In this document: positions 15,452 through 25,878 of the stretch, in pieces
How the letters are laid out: each line of letters starts with the position of its first letter
Numbering within the stretch: the first letter of the stretch is position 1
DNA from: Thermoplasmata archaeon
Lineage (GTDB): Archaea; Thermoplasmatota; Thermoplasmata; WALJ01
Assembly: GCA_027006785.1 (NCBI GenBank)
Contig: JALTFR010000045.1
Location: 1-40,161, forward strand
Reading direction: 5' to 3'
DNA length: 40,161 nucleotides
The notes under the pieces: generated by a model
Database searches by the model: none
Told to the model about the DNA's origin: nothing
The model's input: the letters and a program-made list of their open reading frames with translations, nothing else
Translations under genes and position numbers: made by a program

Positions 15452-16084
15452 ATGAGCGAAGAAGAGTTCGATTACGATTCACTGCTTAACACCGCATACG
15501 AGGCCGTGCCCGAAACAGTGAAGAGCGGAGAGAGGTTCGAGATCCCGCACGTGGATGTGATGAACGAGGGCAAAATGACGATAATAAGGAATTTCACGGA
15601 AATATGTGAGAAGATAAGAAGGGACCCCAATGACGTCATAAAATACCTTCTGAGAGAGTTCGGTACTGCCGGTGGGATTGAAGGGAGAAGAGCCATTCTG
15701 AAATCCAGAATATCCGAGAGCAGCATACAGGCGAGGTTCAACACATATGTTGAGACCTATGTCATATGTTCCGAGTGCGGAAGGCCGGATACGGAGCTCG
15801 TCAGGGAAGGCAGGATTCTCATGCTGAAATGCGATGCCTGCGGCGCAAAGAGGCCTGTAACCGTGAGAAAGGGGCCGAAACCCGCAGACAAGCCCAAGGG
15901 CCCGCTTGTTGTGGGAAATATCTATGAGGTCTCCATAGAGGCCACCGGAAAGAGGGGTGACGGCATCGCAAGAATGGGCGCGTTCACCATCTATGTAAAG
16001 GGAAATTACAGGAAGGGCACGAGACTTCGCGTTAAAATAGAGAAGATAAACGGCACCAACGCATTCGCAAGCGCCGTACCTTGA
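15452..16084 (+). CDS. eif2b: Translation initiation factor aIF2 subunit beta with C-terminal TRAM domain
   Basis: This subunit of aIF2 helps deliver Met-tRNAi. Of its 210 residues, about 1-100 are the alpha-beta core (VDVMNEGKMTIIRNFTEICE and EFGTAGGIEGRRAILKSRIS). The C4 zinc ribbon CSECGRPDTEL...CDACGAKRPV follows, as expected. After a Lys/Pro linker, residues about 148-208 form a TRAM domain (GNIYEVSIEATGKRGDGIAR, then RLRVKIEKINGTNAFASAV), a nucleic-acid-binding module. Such extensions are known in some euryarchaeal aIF2-beta proteins and may add RNA contacts. The leaderless start is supported by the TATA box. Confidence 0.94.
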   Translation: MSEEEFDYDSLLNTAYEAVPETVKSGERFEIPHVDVMNEGKMTIIRNFTEICEKIRRDPNDVIKYLLREFGTAGGIEGRRAILKSRISESSIQARFNTYVETYVICSECGRPDTELVREGRILMLKCDACGAKRPVTVRKGPKPADKPKGPLVVGNIYEVSIEATGKRGDGIARMGAFTIYVKGNYRKGTRLRVKIEKINGTNAFASAVP

Positions 16085-17025: not shown

Positions 17026-17061
17026 CATTCTTCCATTCTTCCATTCTTCTTTACATTCTTC
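17026..17061. repeat. Short tandem repeat (CATTCTTC)
   Basis: There are three perfect head-to-tail copies of CATTCTTC at 17026-17049, and a fourth at 17054-17061 after a 4-nt interruption. On the plus strand it is a pyrimidine run after the kinase-family gene and may act as a terminator; it covers the stop codon of the IleRS-like gene on the other strand. Confidence 0.6.
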
Positions 17062-20000
17062 ACATCTTATCCACGAATTTCTTGACCTGTTCCGCCAGTG
17101 CCCTGCTCATGCGGGGAATCTTTGCAAGCTCATCAACGCTGGCCTTTTTGAGCGCTCCGATGCTGTGATAACCTGCCCGGTATATCTTCCTGGCCCTTGA
17201 GGGCCCGAGGCCCTTTATGCCGGTTATCGCCTTTACGAACTCAACCTCGCTAAGCTCCTTATCGGCTTTCTCCGGTGCAGACGCCTCATTTTTGGCTTCC
17301 TTTGCGCTCTCCTTCTTTGCAGGTTTTGGTGCTTTTTTCTCTTTCTTCTCCTCTATCGGTATTCCAAGTGATTTGAACAGAAGTTCCGCCATCGCAGGGC
17401 TCATTCTCTTTACCTTTGACACCTCTGCCACGCCTGCTTTCCTCAGGTCATCTTCGCTGCGATACCCCACCTGATACAGAAGTTTTGCCCTTGAAGGTCC
17501 GATTCCCTTTATTTTGGCCATCTTCTCCATAAACTGAGTGTCCTCTCCGGTATCCTCTTTTTTCTCCTTTTCAGTCTCCTTTTCATTCTGTTCCACCGGC
17601 TCTTTCTGAGCTTTTCCCGTCTCTTCCCTCAGGTGGAGCGGAAGATGACATTTCGGACAGACATCAAGGGGCTCGTCCAGAGTGGCACCACAGATGGAAC
17701 ATTCGTACTCAGTTCCTTTCTTTATCAGCTCCGCACCGCCTGCAAAGTTCTTTCTGGCATATGAAAGTATCTTACGGGCAATGCCCGAACTTATACCCGG
17801 TATGGAAGAGAGGTCTTTCTCGGTGGCCTGAAGAAGAAGAGCCAGATTGGTATAGCCCTCATCGAATATGGCCTCTGCCTTCTGCCTCTTTATTCCCGGT
17901 ATTCTGGTAAGGACTGCCATCATCTCCTCCCAGTATAGGGGCTCGATTCCGATTATGACAGGCTCTCCCTCGATATACCACTCGACCATGTACTCTCCTT
18001 CAATGCCCTCCTCATTGGTGAGCGCTATCTCGCGGGCATTGACCATCCGGGCTATCTCTTCCCCCCATTCCATGACAGCATCCTCAATATCCTCGTTTCC
18101 CGCAATATTCAAGTCAATATAGTCTCTGAAACTCAGGTCAAGGTCCTTTCTCATGTCCTGAACCCTTCTGACTATCTCCCTCATGCGTCCCTCCATCATG
18201 AGCTTTTCATCCCTTCTCACGTCCAGATATACGCTTCCATCGAGAAATTTCTGCTCGACCACATAGTCTGGAAGTGCCGAGACGAACTTGACCATGTTTG
18301 GCTCTATCTTAACCATCTGCCCCTCTATTCCCAGGTAGTACTCCCCTCTCTGGATTTCCTCCCTTATCCTCTTTGCAGGCCGGTTCTTCAGCATGACCGC
18401 AATCCTGCTGGACCACTGGCGATATACCATTCCTATGGCGTCCGGATTGGGTTGAACCTCCAGTATCATCTCTTCCCACTCCTGTGCCGGCTGCACGGTC
18501 TCTATGGTCTTAACATTGAGCTCTTCCATTATGAACTCCGCAAAGAGCTCCGCAGCATCTATGACCTCTTTGGATGCTGCTTTGACAACTATGCGTGAAA
18601 GCGGCCATCTCAGCGGTATCCCTGCCCTCCTTCTGGCCTTTCTTCCGGAGCGTATTATGTCCATGGCAATCTCCATGCGAACATCCAGATTCCTGTCTAT
18701 CAGAAGCTTGTTGGGAGTCCCTATATCTTCACTGTGGACCGTGGGCTCCTTTCCACCTATGTCCTGGTACATCTTTTCCGCTATATGCGGCGAGAACGGA
18801 GCCAGCATTCTGAGTATGGCCACCATAGCCTCATAAAGCGTGCGGTATGCGGAAAGTACCTCTCTGCGCTCCATATCTCCCGAGCGAATCCTCGTTCTGA
18901 CCGCCCTCAGATACCACTTAGATACCGAATCTATGAGAGAAATAAGAACATCCGAGGCCTTATCTGGCCTGTACGAGTCCATACTTTTTATGTATTCATC
19001 CCTCGATTCCTCAAGCAGGGATAACATCCACAGGTCAACGGACATGCCGTACTCGTGCACGGTTTCCAGAGAAACCTCCTCCGGCTTGAAATCGGAGATT
19101 CCATAGTAAAGAGAGACAAAACGGTGTATGTTCCAGAGCCTTTCGAATACGCTTCTGACCCTCTCAAGATGCAAATCCAAGAGTTTCCTGTCATACCAAG
19201 GGCTGCCTCCTGAAAGAAGTGCATATCTGAGTATATCGGCACCGTACCTTTCCATTAAACCGGCAAGCTTGACTCCTTTTGGAAATGAGACTCCTCCTGT
19301 GGATATGGCCCTCTTGAATGGTGCTTTTTCAAATATGGCCGAAGATACTGCCATCTGGGAATATATCCATGTCCTGGATACCGTCAATGGTTCAAGCACG
19401 AAGTCTGCGGGCCACCACCTCCTGTATTCACTCTCCATTGCCGGATAGCTCAACTGAGCCCATGAGGAGGCCATTGAAGCGAAATCAGGTAGCAAAACCT
19501 CACTCACACGTTTCATTGAGTCTCCGCACCGGGGGCATTTCACGGAGTATCTGTCTATCCACGGGCGATATATTCCCATTCCTTTCTTGAAGTCCGGGGA
19601 AATTTTCTGCAGTTCTTTCAGTGAACCTATGACCTCGGTGTGACCGCATGACTGGCATACCCAGACGGGCATTGGTACTCCCCAGTATCCTTTCTTAGAG
19701 ATGGGGATCGGCATGACCTGTTCCATCCATTCGTAATCAGCCCCCATCATCCACGAAGGGTTCCATTCGACATCCGTGGCAGCTTCCTCCACTCTTTCGG
19801 ATATCTCGGATGGCTTGAATGACCATTCCTCGGATATCATCGGTATGAGCTCCGTGCCGCAGCGCCGGCAATGGGCGGTGCTCTCAAGTACATCCATGGG
19901 AGCAAGGGCCGCGCCCGTGTTGATGAGGTCACGTACGATTATCGAATTAGCATCGAAGACTGTGAAACCCGCATATTTCCCTGTGCTGGAGCCCAGTTCA

Positions 20001-21073
20001 CCTGATTCGCTGACCGGTGTCAGAACCTGTATTCCATTTCTCTCGGCAAGACTGAGATCATAGGACGAATGCGCCGGTACAATGCCCTTTATTCCTGTTC
20101 TCCCGGTGCTGTTCCCTGCCAGAACACGGTCTATGTTTAGCTCCTCGCTCTCCATCATGCCTATGTCAATTATATCGTCATCCTGCGCTGTGCTCCCGAA
20201 GAGCGGATGAAGATATCTCATGCCCACCAGTTTCTCTCCGCTTATCTCCCCGACCTTTCTGTAGTCCTTTATGCCGCAGTCTTTCATTACGGCATCGAGC
20301 TCGGAGGAGCCCACTATTATCTTCTCCCTTCCGCCCTTTATCTCCACAACACTGTATTTCTTTGAGGGCGAGGCCTCAAGAGCCAGAGTGGCCGTTATTT
20401 TCCACGGCTCAGAGAACCACACAACGAGATAGTTCATGCCCCTTTCTTTCAGTTCGAACTTTACATATATGCCCTTCTTCCAGTCCTTCTCAACCTTCAT
20501 ATCCGAACGGGAAACGAAGGTCCTGCAGTTGGGACACCACTGAGATATGCCTTTGAACCTCCCGAGCAGCCCCCTCTCGTTGAGCTCCTTGAACGTGAAC
20601 CACACACTATCCATATACTTTGTCTCTATCGGGTCATAGGGTCGCTTCCAGTCCATCCAAATTCCCATATCCAGCATGCTCTCCGCAATCTTTCCTTCGA
20701 GCTCTTTGGCCTCCTTCTTGCACTGGTTTATGAAGGACTCCGGATTGCTTCCAATTTCCTCGGAGGATATTCCCAAAGCATGAATGGCCGCTGCCTCAAC
20801 CTCCCCGGCATAACCCTCTATTCCGGGAGTATCACGGACATTGTTCCCGCGCATCCTGAGATATCTGATGAACGCATCCTTCATTATCATTGAAAACAGC
20901 CTTGAAGGATCGCTTGAATCCCTGGTTTCATGCAGGGAATCCAGCACATAAATGTCCTTACCATGTGAGCGCTTTTCGCGGGAGCGCTCATAAGCCTTTT
21001 TCTCCTCCCAGAGTGTCCTTATCTCATTTTCTGTCCGTTTCGGAGAATACCTTGATGGAATCTTGCGGCTCAT
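17060..21073 (-). CDS. Isoleucyl-tRNA synthetase-like protein without catalytic motifs, fused to HhH/zinc-ribbon tail
   Basis: This is a 1337-residue protein. Residues 1 to about 1045 follow the whole class I IleRS layout: Rossmann core, CP1, anticodon-binding helices (APFSPHIAEKMYQDI) and C-terminal domain. The active sites are gone. At the HIGH site it reads DSSDPSR (52-58). The DxHGLPxE site reads EGYAGEV. The tail of the editing pocket reads VVWFSEPWK in place of TTTPWT, and PAHSSYDL in place of PAxGEDD. WFDSG reads DFASM (530-534). The KMSKS loop is replaced by GVSFPKGVKLAGL. YWGVPMPVWVCQSCG and WPADFV still show the family. Residues 1050-1337 add HhH repeats (1057-1103, 1185-1231, 1284-1330) and a zinc ribbon CSICG...CPKCH (1125-1142). 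It has its own TATA box at 21101-21110. It probably does not charge tRNA; it may bind tRNA or other nucleic acid. Confidence 0.9.
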   Translation of the reverse strand: MSRKIPSRYSPKRTENEIRTLWEEKKAYERSREKRSHGKDIYVLDSLHETRDSSDPSRLFSMIMKDAFIRYLRMRGNNVRDTPGIEGYAGEVEAAAIHALGISSEEIGSNPESFINQCKKEAKELEGKIAESMLDMGIWMDWKRPYDPIETKYMDSVWFTFKELNERGLLGRFKGISQWCPNCRTFVSRSDMKVEKDWKKGIYVKFELKERGMNYLVVWFSEPWKITATLALEASPSKKYSVVEIKGGREKIIVGSSELDAVMKDCGIKDYRKVGEISGEKLVGMRYLHPLFGSTAQDDDIIDIGMMESEELNIDRVLAGNSTGRTGIKGIVPAHSSYDLSLAERNGIQVLTPVSESGELGSSTGKYAGFTVFDANSIIVRDLINTGAALAPMDVLESTAHCRRCGTELIPMISEEWSFKPSEISERVEEAATDVEWNPSWMMGADYEWMEQVMPIPISKKGYWGVPMPVWVCQSCGHTEVIGSLKELQKISPDFKKGMGIYRPWIDRYSVKCPRCGDSMKRVSEVLLPDFASMASSWAQLSYPAMESEYRRWWPADFVLEPLTVSRTWIYSQMAVSSAIFEKAPFKRAISTGGVSFPKGVKLAGLMERYGADILRYALLSGGSPWYDRKLLDLHLERVRSVFERLWNIHRFVSLYYGISDFKPEEVSLETVHEYGMSVDLWMLSLLEESRDEYIKSMDSYRPDKASDVLISLIDSVSKWYLRAVRTRIRSGDMERREVLSAYRTLYEAMVAILRMLAPFSPHIAEKMYQDIGGKEPTVHSEDIGTPNKLLIDRNLDVRMEIAMDIIRSGRKARRRAGIPLRWPLSRIVVKAASKEVIDAAELFAEFIMEELNVKTIETVQPAQEWEEMILEVQPNPDAIGMVYRQWSSRIAVMLKNRPAKRIREEIQRGEYYLGIEGQMVKIEPNMVKFVSALPDYVVEQKFLDGSVYLDVRRDEKLMMEGRMREIVRRVQDMRKDLDLSFRDYIDLNIAGNEDIEDAVMEWGEEIARMVNAREIALTNEEGIEGEYMVEWYIEGEPVIIGIEPLYWEEMMAVLTRIPGIKRQKAEAIFDEGYTNLALLLQATEKDLSSIPGISSGIARKILSYARKNFAGGAELIKKGTEYECSICGATLDEPLDVCPKCHLPLHLREETGKAQKEPVEQNEKETEKEKKEDTGEDTQFMEKMAKIKGIGPSRAKLLYQVGYRSEDDLRKAGVAEVSKVKRMSPAMAELLFKSLGIPIEEKKEKKAPKPAKKESAKEAKNEASAPEKADKELSEVEFVKAITGIKGLGPSRARKIYRAGYHSIGALKKASVDELAKIPRMSRALAEQVKKFVDKM

Positions 21074-21100
21074 CTTATCGCCGCACCATACACTTCATCT

Positions 21101-21110
21101 ATTAAATTTC
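21101..21110 (-). promoter_or_regulatory. TATA box of the IleRS-like gene
   Basis: Minus-strand GAAATTTAAT is centred about 32 nt before the ATG at 21073, within the 79-nt gap after pfdB. It suggests the gene can be transcribed apart from the superoperon. Confidence 0.5.
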
Positions 21111-22139: not shown

Positions 22140-22946
22140 TTAGAGTGATTTCATCAGGATATCTCTCAGCTCGTTGCCCTTCTCTGTGGCTTTCCTGACA
22201 ATATCCTGGATTTCGGCGTAGCTGAATCCTCCATTTAAACCTTTCTGCATTGCCCTGACCCTTCCTTCCGGATCCGTGGAAACAGAAAGTCTTGCATCCG
22301 CCACTGTTTCCTCGTCAAGTGCCGGGTCAACGAGTATGACATCCTTTATCTTCACGAATGTGCTCATTATTGGGTAGTTATTTATGGGCATTGGGAAGTC
22401 CTCTCCGAGGTCATAGTCAGGGTATTGGTCTGCGAACTGTGAGGCGGGTACGGTGGCGCTCGCCAGCGCTGCCATTGCGGCCAGAGCCGCTGCATCAAAG
22501 AGGTTGCCGTCGTAATCCAGTATATGCACATCTATGAACATTATCCATACCAGTTCTCCTTCTTTTATGCAGAGTTTTTCCATATCCACTGCATGACCTT
22601 CCCTGAGACCTCTGTCAACAACCCTTGAAAGCTCTATTGACTCTGCATCTGGTGGTCCGCTCTCGAACGTGGGTGACGCCATGGGTATAAGCTCTGCATT
22701 CGTCGTCATGACACCGACATTAGGCGTGTCCGGGAAGGGAGATCCTATGGTCATCTTTATCCCCGCAAGAACGTCAGTGTTCCCGATATGAACCCTTGCG
22801 GAGCCTTCTGCGCTCTGTATCACATTGGTCTCTATGCTCACCTTCCTGTATTCGTCATATCCTCTTCCGTCTATCCTCTTTCCTTCTTCGAGACTGTTGT
22901 AGATATAATCCCTCAGTATCTCTGAAACTACCTTATTGCCGCTCAT
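22140..22946 (-). CDS. rrp42: Exosome complex subunit Rrp42
   Basis: This is the non-catalytic RNase PH-like subunit of the archaeal exosome ring, 268 residues long. Landmarks are EGKRIDGRGYDEYRKVSIET, GSARVHIGNTDVLAGIKM, FIDVHILDYDGNLFDAAALA and the C-terminal HhH-free tail. It pairs with Rrp41 to form the hexamer and helps bind RNA. The ATG at 22946 overlaps the rrp41 stop (TGATG); a GTG one codon before is an alternative. Confidence 0.96.
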   Translation of the reverse strand: MSGNKVVSEILRDYIYNSLEEGKRIDGRGYDEYRKVSIETNVIQSAEGSARVHIGNTDVLAGIKMTIGSPFPDTPNVGVMTTNAELIPMASPTFESGPPDAESIELSRVVDRGLREGHAVDMEKLCIKEGELVWIMFIDVHILDYDGNLFDAAALAAMAALASATVPASQFADQYPDYDLGEDFPMPINNYPIMSTFVKIKDVILVDPALDEETVADARLSVSTDPEGRVRAMQKGLNGGFSYAEIQDIVRKATEKGNELRDILMKSL

Positions 22947-23704
22947 CACTGCACCCCCTCTATTTCTTCCGTCTCTTCGCGGGCTATCATCTCGTACCTC
23001 TTTCTGAGGGCCTCCTTCTGAAGGCCGTAGATGTACTTTGCAGCGTCCATTGACATCTCCATGGCCTTGAATAGCTCCTCCTGTGTCATGTCACCGTCCA
23101 TCTGAAGAAGCACTATCTCGCCTGTCCGTGGTATGTATCCCATTGGGACATCGGCCTGACCGTAGTTGTCCTCTTCCTTTCCGAGGTCGAGGACTACGAC
23201 ATCATCAACCTTTCCGGATGCGACTCCGACCACAAGGTCCTTCATCGGTATGCCTGCGTCAGCCAGAGCAACTGATGCTGCCGTCAGGCCTGCACACCGC
23301 GTACCGGCATTTGCCTGCAGAACCTCTATGAAAACATCTATGCTTGACCTGGGAAATAGCTCTGTCATAACAACATGCTCCAGCGCCTCGGACGTTATCT
23401 TTGATATCTCGACCGACCTCCTGTCCGGTCCGGGCCTCTTCCTGTCGCCGACCGAGAAAGGTGCCATATTGTATCTGACCTGAACAATGGCCTTATTTGA
23501 CTTCTGAAGGTGCCTGGGATGAGCTTCCCTCGGTCCATAAACAGCTGCGAGTATCTTGTTCTTTCCCCATTCTACATATGCCGAGCCATCAGCCCTTTTC
23601 AGGACTCCGGCCTCTATCTTTATTGGTCTCAGTTCTTCGGGCTTTCTTCCGTCAATTCTCAGCCCGTTCTTGTCTATCAATTCAATATCCATCTTCATAC
23701 CCAT
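22946..23704 (-). CDS. rrp41: Exosome complex subunit Rrp41 (catalytic)
   Basis: This is the phosphorolytic 3'-to-5' exoribonuclease subunit, 252 residues long. [13 protein letters not shown] opens the RNase PH fold. [20 protein letters not shown] carries the RNA/phosphate-binding arginines. [20 protein letters not shown] holds the catalytic aspartate region, and [20 protein letters not shown] completes it. An AAGGAGG site is 7 nt before the ATG. Its gene follows rrp4 by 2 nt. Confidence 0.97.
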
Positions 23705-23706
23705 TT

Positions 23707-24414
23707 CTATTCCTCCTTACTTAAAATTCCTATCTCCTTGCTTTCTTTCTCCAGAAATTCCCTCACTCTATCGGTAAGTCCTATCGTATGTGCGTTATTG
23801 TCTATCATATTTATCGCCCTCATAGCAAGGGCAATTCCGTCAACATCTCCGTCTATCCATATCCTTCCGTTCTGGCCCACGAATATCCTGCACTGTGTGT
23901 ATTCTTTCAGGATGTTTATCATGGAACCTCCTTTTCCTATAACTCTAGGAACTTTGTATGCGGATATCTCCATTATGCTTCCACCGGTGAGCTTTCTCAG
24001 GCCCTGCTCCTTCATTGTGACCTTGACATGCTTTGCTTCATCTATTCCTGCCACCTTGAGGAGAACCACATCACCAACCTTCAGATATTTTCCGGTATCA
24101 CCGAAATCCACCTTCCAGGGGACCTCATTAACGTGCAAAGGCGCCGGGTACGGGGAATTTATATCGACAAGCCATGAGTTCGCACTCATCTCCTCCACTA
24201 TACCGATCACCTTGTCCCCGAACTTTGGCATATAATGCCCCTTCAATGGAAAGACATTCACATAGTTCCTACTTATATTTTTTATGCCCATCTGGGCCGC
24301 ATATATCTTTCCATCCTGTGCATATGCACCTGTTCCGGGCCTCATATCTCCTTCTGCTATGAGGTCTCCGGGCAACACAAGTTCCCTTTTCACTTCAATA
24401 CTTTCTTCGCTCAT
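23707..24414 (-). CDS. rrp4: Exosome complex RNA-binding subunit Rrp4
   Basis: This is the cap protein of the archaeal exosome, 235 residues long. An N-terminal domain ([20 protein letters not shown]) leads to an S1 domain ([20 protein letters not shown]) and a KH domain with [17 protein letters not shown], the GxxG loop being intact. It recruits A-rich RNA to the ring. The ATG lacks a strong SD but has a TATA element 27 nt upstream, inside the end of the SBDS gene. Confidence 0.97.
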
Positions 24415-24431
24415 TGTATCACGCTCTTAAC

Positions 24432-25130
24432 TCAATTATTTAAAATTTTTGTTTCAATCTCCCCTTTGCTCTTCTTTCCTATTTTATCCAGAAACTCAAC
24501 CTGCAGGCCTGCAGGCATCTCAACAACGCCTATCCACGAACCGTTGGGCTGCCATTCCTCTTTTATTATGGTGCCGTAAGAGACAATATCCCCGTAGATC
24601 TTTCCATATACATCGCCTGAGGCATGAACAGCTATTCTGACCTTTTCGAACCTTATGGGTATTATTGGCTTTATGGCATTGAGAACCGTTTGAACCTGCT
24701 TATCCGCCGCTTTGAATGGGTCTATATGCACATGGGCCTCCTCCATCGCAGCTTCTATTCTCGATGGAGGGTGAGGTGTCCTTGTCTGCGGATTTATGGC
24801 ATTCCTTGCTATTTCCGCAACTATCTGTCTCTTCTTTTCCTCCTGCATCTTCCTTCTCTGGTCGGTGGTGAGCTGGACATCGCCTTTCCCTATGATGGCC
24901 CGTGCAACCTCATTTACATCTGTGGTTCCGAAGACCTTCTTTATCATATCCTCGGATGCGCGGTCGCCTTTATGTGCATCCCTGAACACCTCTTCGGCAG
25001 CCATATACTGAAGGACGTCCTCAATCCTGCCTTCCCTTATGTCCTCAACGGCATCCGGGTCTATCAGGATTTCAAAGCGCTCTCCATGGCTCTCGAGCCT
25101 TGCTATTACGGCATCGTCAAGGCTTACCAT
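24432..25130 (-). CDS. Ribosome maturation protein SBDS homologue
   Basis: This is a 232-residue SBDS/Sdo1 family protein, which in other systems helps release the eIF6 factor from the large ribosomal subunit. The FYSH-type domain (ESHGERFEILIDPDAVEDIR and DRASEDMIKKVFGTTD) and the central QLTTDQRRKMQEEKKRQIVA segment are typical. The AINPQTRTPHPPSRIEAAME motif is diagnostic. An AAGGAGAT site precedes the ATG at 25130; the longer frame to 25169 is inside psmA. It is the second gene of the superoperon. Confidence 0.95.
   Translation of the reverse strand: MVSLDDAVIARLESHGERFEILIDPDAVEDIREGRIEDVLQYMAAEEVFRDAHKGDRASEDMIKKVFGTTDVNEVARAIIGKGDVQLTTDQRRKMQEEKKRQIVAEIARNAINPQTRTPHPPSRIEAAMEEAHVHIDPFKAADKQVQTVLNAIKPIIPIRFEKVRIAVHASGDVYGKIYGDIVSYGTIIKEEWQPNGSWIGVVEMPAGLQVEFLDKIGKKSKGEIETKILNN
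24435..24450 (-). promoter_or_regulatory. Internal TATA element before rrp4
   Basis: Minus-strand AAAAATTTTAAATAATT-like sequence spans the last codons of SBDS and is centred 27 nt before the rrp4 ATG. It could start a leaderless rrp4 transcript inside the operon. Confidence 0.45.
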
Positions 25131-25131
25131 C

Positions 25132-25878
25132 TCAATCTCCTTTGGATTCCCCGGATTTTCCCTTTCCAAGGACCTTATTTATCATCCTGCCAACTTCTTT
25201 CATCGAGTACTTTGAAAAGTTCTTTCCTTTCTGGATAACACCTATTTCAACGGAGATCGGATTGAGTTCCTCATCGTTGGCCTTCTGTAGGGCTTTCAGA
25301 CCGAGAGATATGGCCTCATCCTTCTTCATACCCTCTTTCCACTCCGCCTCGAGGACCTCCATGACCGCATCCTTGCCCGCACCGATGCTGGTGGCTCTGT
25401 AGCCGAAGAGAGCTCCGCTCGGGTCCGTCTCATAGAGTTTAGGACCATCATCGTCGATTCCCGCGATGAGCAATGCTATTCCAAAGGGCCTTACACCGCC
25501 ATACTGGGTGTACTGCTGCTTGTAATCGCATATCTTCCTTGCCAGAGCACTGGTTAGTATGGGCTCGTCATATGTTACCCTGTTTATCTGTGCCTGGACC
25601 CGAGCATAGTCCACGATTATTCTCGCATCTGCCACAAGGCCAGAGCATGAAACCCCTATATGTCCATCAATCTCGCATATCTTTTCAACCGAATCCGGGT
25701 CTATCAGCCTGGAACTCAGCCTTTTATCGGCAATAAGCACGACGCCATCCTTGAATGTTATTCCGATGGTCGTTGTACCTCTGGTCACTGCCACACGCGC
25801 ATATTCCACCTGGAAAAGGCGCCCGTCGGGGGAGAATACCGTTATCGCTCTATCATAAGCCATCTGTCCTGCCTGCAT
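25132..25878 (-). CDS. psmA: Proteasome subunit alpha
   Basis: This is the outer-ring subunit of the archaeal 20S proteasome, 248 residues long. The N-terminal gate YDRAITVFSPDGRLFQVEY is intact. LIADKRLSSRLIDPDSVEKI, GLVADARIIVDYARVQAQ and RPFGIALLIAGID follow in the expected order. The tail is longer and basic (GKGKSGESKGD), unlike HbYX docking partners. A TATA box lies about 37 nt upstream, with a GGTGA ribosome-binding site 6 nt before the ATG. It heads the proteasome–exosome superoperon. Confidence 0.97.
   Translation of the reverse strand: MQAGQMAYDRAITVFSPDGRLFQVEYARVAVTRGTTTIGITFKDGVVLIADKRLSSRLIDPDSVEKICEIDGHIGVSCSGLVADARIIVDYARVQAQINRVTYDEPILTSALARKICDYKQQYTQYGGVRPFGIALLIAGIDDDGPKLYETDPSGALFGYRATSIGAGKDAVMEVLEAEWKEGMKKDEAISLGLKALQKANDEELNPISVEIGVIQKGKNFSKYSMKEVGRMINKVLGKGKSGESKGD

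Follow-up and report, generated by a model that had tools for sequence, protein, structure and literature searches.

The gene at positions 17060 to 21073 of the window, the whole 40,161-nt stretch of DNA analysed here, is very probably the displaced native isoleucyl-tRNA synthetase (IleRS) of its genome, catalytically dead and maintained under selection. Loss of the motifs under such strong selection suggests that a second, non-enzymatic role has been kept. In the following, the native archaeal type of IleRS is called A, the bacterial type is called B, and families within the class carry numbers (f1, f2 and so on), the window protein belonging to f1.

An IleRS descendant without catalytic and editing motifs

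The gene is a single open frame of 1337 codons with an ATG start, and its product matches the Pfam families tRNA-synt_1, Anticodon_1 and DUF5915, followed by three HHH_5 stretches. The features are listed below.

17060..21073, minus strand: descendant of the A-type (native archaeal) IleRS, 1337 aa, without the motifs for catalysis and editing (ORF, profile matches, alignments)
20489..21073, minus strand: N-terminal half of the Rossmann fold, residues 1-195; GPP/HIGH site reads DSLHETRDSSDPSR, DxHGLPxE site reads EGYAGEVE, predicted fold kept
19889..20488, minus strand: CP1 editing-domain region, residues 196-395; T-rich strand and VHxAP replaced, Asp339 kept
19154..19888, minus strand: C-terminal half of the Rossmann fold with zinc cysteines, residues 396-640; WFDSG reads DFASM, DQTRGWF reads TVSRTWI, KMSKS loop replaced
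18554..19153, minus strand: anticodon-binding helix bundle, residues 641-840; 16 of 20 universal IleRS invariants kept
17939..18553, minus strand: DUF5915 region; 10 of 11 universal invariants kept
17063..17938, minus strand: C-terminal extension, residues 1046-1337; three HHH domains, one CxxC zinc ribbon, no DUF835
21100..21109, minus strand: candidate TATA-like element AAATTTAATA, about 27 nt upstream of the ATG, by resemblance to the consensus only

The IleRS fold and domain order of the active enzyme (EC 6.1.1.5) are present. The PDB relatives of the protein are IleRS, AlphaFold2 predicts an IleRS fold for residues 1-1050 (pLDDT 87, pTM 0.79), and a Foldseek search with the predicted fold returns IleRS structures as top matches, including the yeast IleRS-tRNA complex with a TM score of 0.82 by target length. 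The NCBIfam ileS model covers residues 5-840 with 443.1 bits, under the cut-off of 621.4, compared with 973.5 for the intact A protein of genome G015 and 971.2 for the B protein of the window genome. Profile matches, alignments and predicted fold therefore agree with the sequence-only reading of this gene as a full-length IleRS relative with its catalytic motifs gone. Alignment to intact relatives also bears out its individual motif readings: HMGT is changed to DPSR, DMHGLPIE to EGYAGEVE and DVWFDSG to LPDFASM, while the GxxMSKSxGN (KMSKS) loop is shortened and replaced. That reading overlooked the loss of the editing site, where TTTPWT has become FSEPWK and VHxAP has become KGIVP, with Asp339 alone kept. 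The HIGH-type motif with its GPP loop, the KMSKS loop and the editing site of an active IleRS are thus all missing. When the 136 positions that are conserved among intact proteins of both types are scored, the window protein keeps 17 of 35 in the N-terminal Rossmann half, 10 of 20 in CP1 and 31 of 50 in the C-terminal half, in addition to the counts given above for the helix bundle and DUF5915.

A search of other genomes for orthologues with the same losses, a check that the sequence-only reading had proposed, finds them: family f1 comprises five genomes, including that of the window, with identical motif losses in all and a second IleRS in all five. Since four further genomes carry the same losses, these are not due to chance, and the replacements G46S, P48H, D86E, P91E, D455P and F570I are fixed in all five proteins. 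It is hardly credible that the protein remains active as an IleRS whose motifs are merely atypical; the predicted fold and the zinc sites are retained, but the Ile pocket has been lost along with the two ATP-binding signatures, the N-terminal Rossmann half being deprived of about half of its invariants, and an intact IleRS is present in the same genome.

Prefoldin and exosome genes precede the gene on the same strand with a gap of 79 nt, and an operon with them is therefore possible. The gene may instead have its own promoter, to which the candidate TATA-like element would belong. Upstream of prefoldin, a minus-strand row of SBDS, Rrp4, Rrp41 and Rrp42 genes (22140-25169) forms the usual archaeal exosome cluster, and positions 15452-16084 encode a protein with an aIF2-beta domain and a C-terminal TRAM domain. 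A functional tie to the exosome, also suggested from the sequence, is not supported: three f1 relatives lie on short contigs of about 9 kb each that have no exosome, prefoldin or SBDS genes, so that the link is not conserved among them.

Displacement by a bacterial-type IleRS

A search of the window genome for a normal IleRS, the check that the sequence-only reading had called for, revealed a B-type enzyme, bacterial type 2-like, on contig C6 with HIGH, DCHGLPVE, WYDSG and KMSKS all present; the A and B genes are unlinked. In a tree of 69 proteins, A falls among the archaeal IleRS, where its neighbours are those of Methanosarcinales and Halobacteria, and B falls among the bacterial ones, each group having an SH-aLRT support of 100 (all trees are quick searches supported by SH-aLRT, without bootstrap), and the window protein lies inside the A group. 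As A and B belong to two lineages that diverged deep in the tree, the window gene is not a duplicate of B, and duplication inside the genome is ruled out. The earlier description of a paralogue that kept its tRNA-binding body and gave up aminoacylation is accordingly right as to the loss and, judged from sequence, as to the retained RNA-binding end, and wrong as to origin, the gene being a displaced native IleRS. Descent from a synthetase, as in synthetase-like proteins, is given by this tree and, for the reduced A proteins of f13, also by gene order. These adjoin the same two genes, which we take to encode AcnX subunits, as the intact A genes of f3, f5, f12, f14, f18 and f20, and the flanking genes are direct evidence of descent in place. 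The neighbours of the f1 genes differ, so the descent of f1 rests on the trees.

Reading of about 80 genomes of this archaeal class, the Thermoplasmata, at motif level, several of them fragmentary MAGs, reveals a graded series. A is alone and intact in f2, f4, f5, f8, f10, f12, f14, f15, f19-f21, f23, f26, f27, f29 and f30. It is mildly damaged beside B in f11, f16 and f24 (7 genomes), full length and dead in f1 (5 genomes), f6 (9) and f28 (1), and reduced in f13 (7 genomes, about 1010 aa), f25 (3 genomes, 918-950 aa) and f31 (1 genome, 689 aa). In f17, f9 and most of f31, A is gone and B is alone, with one DUF5915 gene only per genome, and a search of f17 and f9 for a small leftover of A found none. 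Wherever A is damaged, a match to B is present as well (33 of 33 genomes), its motifs being read where the sequence was fetched and several MAGs contributing a match or a fragment only. The f31 remnant (genome G207, L216:2735-4801) keeps DUF5915 and a CxxC zinc ribbon, and has a very long branch and an unsure position in the tree of C-terminal parts; its gene and that of IleRS B are about 2.6 kb apart.

In that tree of C-terminal parts, the severely damaged A proteins of f1, f6, f13, f25 and f28 form one group together with f24 (SH-aLRT 96), and f11 and f16 form a separate group; the tree of 69 proteins, which is built on the body, places f24, f11 and f16 together with f1 and f6. The inner order of the damaged group is unsure because of its long branches. 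As the A protein of f24 keeps GPP/HIGH and DMHG, total loss came later than the f24 split, as a single event below f24 or as several.

Two families depart from this series. Family f3 is a mirror case: its A is intact, and in the four genomes whose motifs were read (L046, L224, L225, L226) B has lost the editing motifs as well as the second lysine of KMSKS. The dN/dS of these damaged B genes is 0.125. In f18 an intact A stands beside a separate GVHH-type bacterial IleRS that groups with Planctomycetota and Chloroflexota (L050, L223); the GVHH motif is known from the mupirocin hyper-resistant IleRS2 (PMC10485003).

The constant presence of B beside a damaged A, together with this mirror image in f3, is what would be expected if the dead protein served the active enzyme as subunit or chaperone, either in a heteromer or through shared tRNA-Ile. 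IleRS is, however, known as a monomeric enzyme, the two genes are unlinked in the window genome, and f9, f17 and most of f31 manage with B alone, making this explanation an unlikely one. It is a more general and still doubtful conjecture that intruding IleRS have repeatedly led, in this archaeal class, to pairs with exactly one active copy, in which the other (usually A, B in f3) would be a pseudoenzyme that binds tRNA-Ile and acts as regulator or partner of its active counterpart.

Selection, domain conservation and a possible retained role

The dead and reduced A genes are not decaying, as their dN/dS values are 0.044 in f1 (G001-G004, a pair with a dS of 1.4, near saturation) and 0.069 in f13 (G144-G189), compared with 0.084-0.097 for three intact A pairs. 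The relaxed selection and broken frames of a pseudogene are absent, all full-length copies having clean frames, which upholds the initial judgment from the window alone that the gene is not a decaying pseudogene. The series does finish with the disappearance of A from f17, f9 and most of f31, as a remnant on its way out and of no important role would predict, but selection at least as strong as on intact A, the clean frames and the retention of the gene in 7 of 7 examined f13 genomes and 9 of 9 examined f6 genomes render that explanation very improbable.

Constraint is not uniform along the protein. The best-conserved part in f1 is the C-terminal anticodon-binding domain, with pairwise identities of 82% in DUF5915 and 60-68% in the other parts, and f6 shows the same order (50% in DUF5915, 33-43% elsewhere). 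In the intact A proteins of f3, f8, f20 and f5 the Rossmann parts are best conserved, those of f3 having 80% identity in the Rossmann halves and 76% in DUF5915. As the intact family f18 likewise has its highest identity in DUF5915, the shift of conservation towards this domain is a tendency and not a rule.

The Rossmann and CP1 parts of f1 are constrained as well (dN/dS of 0.04-0.06), and this, the several replacements fixed in all f1 proteins and the precedent of SbzA, an IleRS turned to another transfer reaction (PMC6331615), are consistent with a fold converted into a different enzyme or into a sensor of Ile or aminoacyl-tRNA, the former active site then holding a new pocket. The replaced positions, however, are no better conserved than random ones in f1 (0.68 versus 0.62-0.65, a value reached by 15-26% of random sets), the replacements differ in f6, and f13 and f25 are without most of the active-site domain. 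Such a conversion is therefore improbable, and the idea that a conserved pocket had newly formed there was rejected, as the former active site has no excess conservation.

On balance, it is rather likely that the displaced native IleRS is kept for a non-catalytic role, probably in RNA binding. A C-terminal module of HHH domains, zinc ribbon and DUF835 is present in most A-type proteins, whether these are intact or dead. DUF835 is listed in a survey of signalling in archaea among the output domains of response regulators, as a KaiC-like domain (PMC5847659). B proteins have no HHH, zinc-ribbon or DUF835 module. A proteins without it (most of f5, f21, G133) are always the sole, intact IleRS of their genome, which supports an added second function that keeps the gene alive. 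DUF835 is not a universal part, being absent from the window copy and G002, which stop after the HHH repeats, and from f25, and kept in G003 and G004. Since f3 retains a damaged B that has no module, the module is not the sole reason to keep a dead IleRS. None of the five DUF835 matches in the window genome (G000), on contigs C24, C42, C41 and C11, falls within the window gene. Also observed were giant zinc-ribbon proteins, coiled-coil-like and about 1980-2430 aa long, that end in a DUF5915-like IleRS C-terminal domain (L066:3117-9050 in G017, L067:11926-17874 in G027, and G059:C7 and G044:C8); in f14 and f18 such a gene adjoins that of the A-type IleRS.

In the proposed sequence of events, native A would have gained the C-terminal module (HHH, zinc ribbon and usually DUF835) together with a second function in most families before the loss. 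A bacterial-type IleRS would then have entered and taken over the charging of tRNA-Ile. The native gene would not have been dropped because of its second function, so that loss was limited to the catalytic and editing sites and the folded body, above all the C-terminal anticodon-binding domain, was kept. The dead protein may recognise tRNA-Ile or a similar RNA via DUF5915 and the anticodon-binding bundle, and could pass this recognition on through its HHH/zinc/DUF835 end as effector. The most likely ligand is tRNA-Ile, although f6 keeps 4-6 of the 11 universal DUF5915 invariants, so that some families may bind a ligand other than tRNA-Ile.

Significance and relation to known systems

Duplication is the usual explanation for synthetase-like proteins. 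In the present case an incoming enzyme took over the work of a native synthetase, which was nevertheless retained, and extant relatives document the stages between the intact enzyme and its loss, first dead full-length and then reduced proteins. Family f13 presumably includes the culturable Aciduliprofundum boonei, which would make the retained function testable. Motif-less A genes may receive an IleRS annotation by homology and could thereby mislead metabolic models. Among the papers searched on IleRS in Thermoplasmata, on DUF835 and on displaced or inactive synthetases, none was found to describe the motif-less A family.

With active archaeal IleRS (NCBIfam TIGR00392, ileS), the window protein shares descent, domain order, predicted fold, zinc sites and the C-terminal anticodon-binding domain, and it differs in having lost all catalytic and editing motifs and in scoring under the family cut-off. 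Coexisting bacterial IleRS1 and IleRS2 are likewise two IleRS types, yet both are active, and the second gives resistance to mupirocin (PMC10485003). SbzA, an IleRS-like aminoacyl transferase of an antibiotic cluster, likewise descends from an IleRS and has a different function alongside a normal one, but it keeps slightly changed HIGH and KMSKS motifs and charges weakly, whereas the window protein keeps neither motif (PMC6331615). SLIMP, HisZ and other synthetase-like proteins combine a synthetase fold with a non-charging role, as here, SLIMP and HisZ being related to the class II enzymes SerRS and HisRS and thus of separate origin (PMC9437257). Nearest in kind is LeuRS-I of Sulfolobaceae, which, like the haloarchaeal LeuRS2, is a second archaeal class I synthetase that has lost or nearly lost charging (PMC9437257). 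LeuRS-I has a damaged editing domain and a divergent C-terminus, but its active site is not lost, as it still makes leucyl-adenylate and binds tRNA-Leu; both proteins belong to the LeuRS lineage, and LeuRS-I is described as a duplicate, unlike the displaced native gene of the window (PMC9437257).
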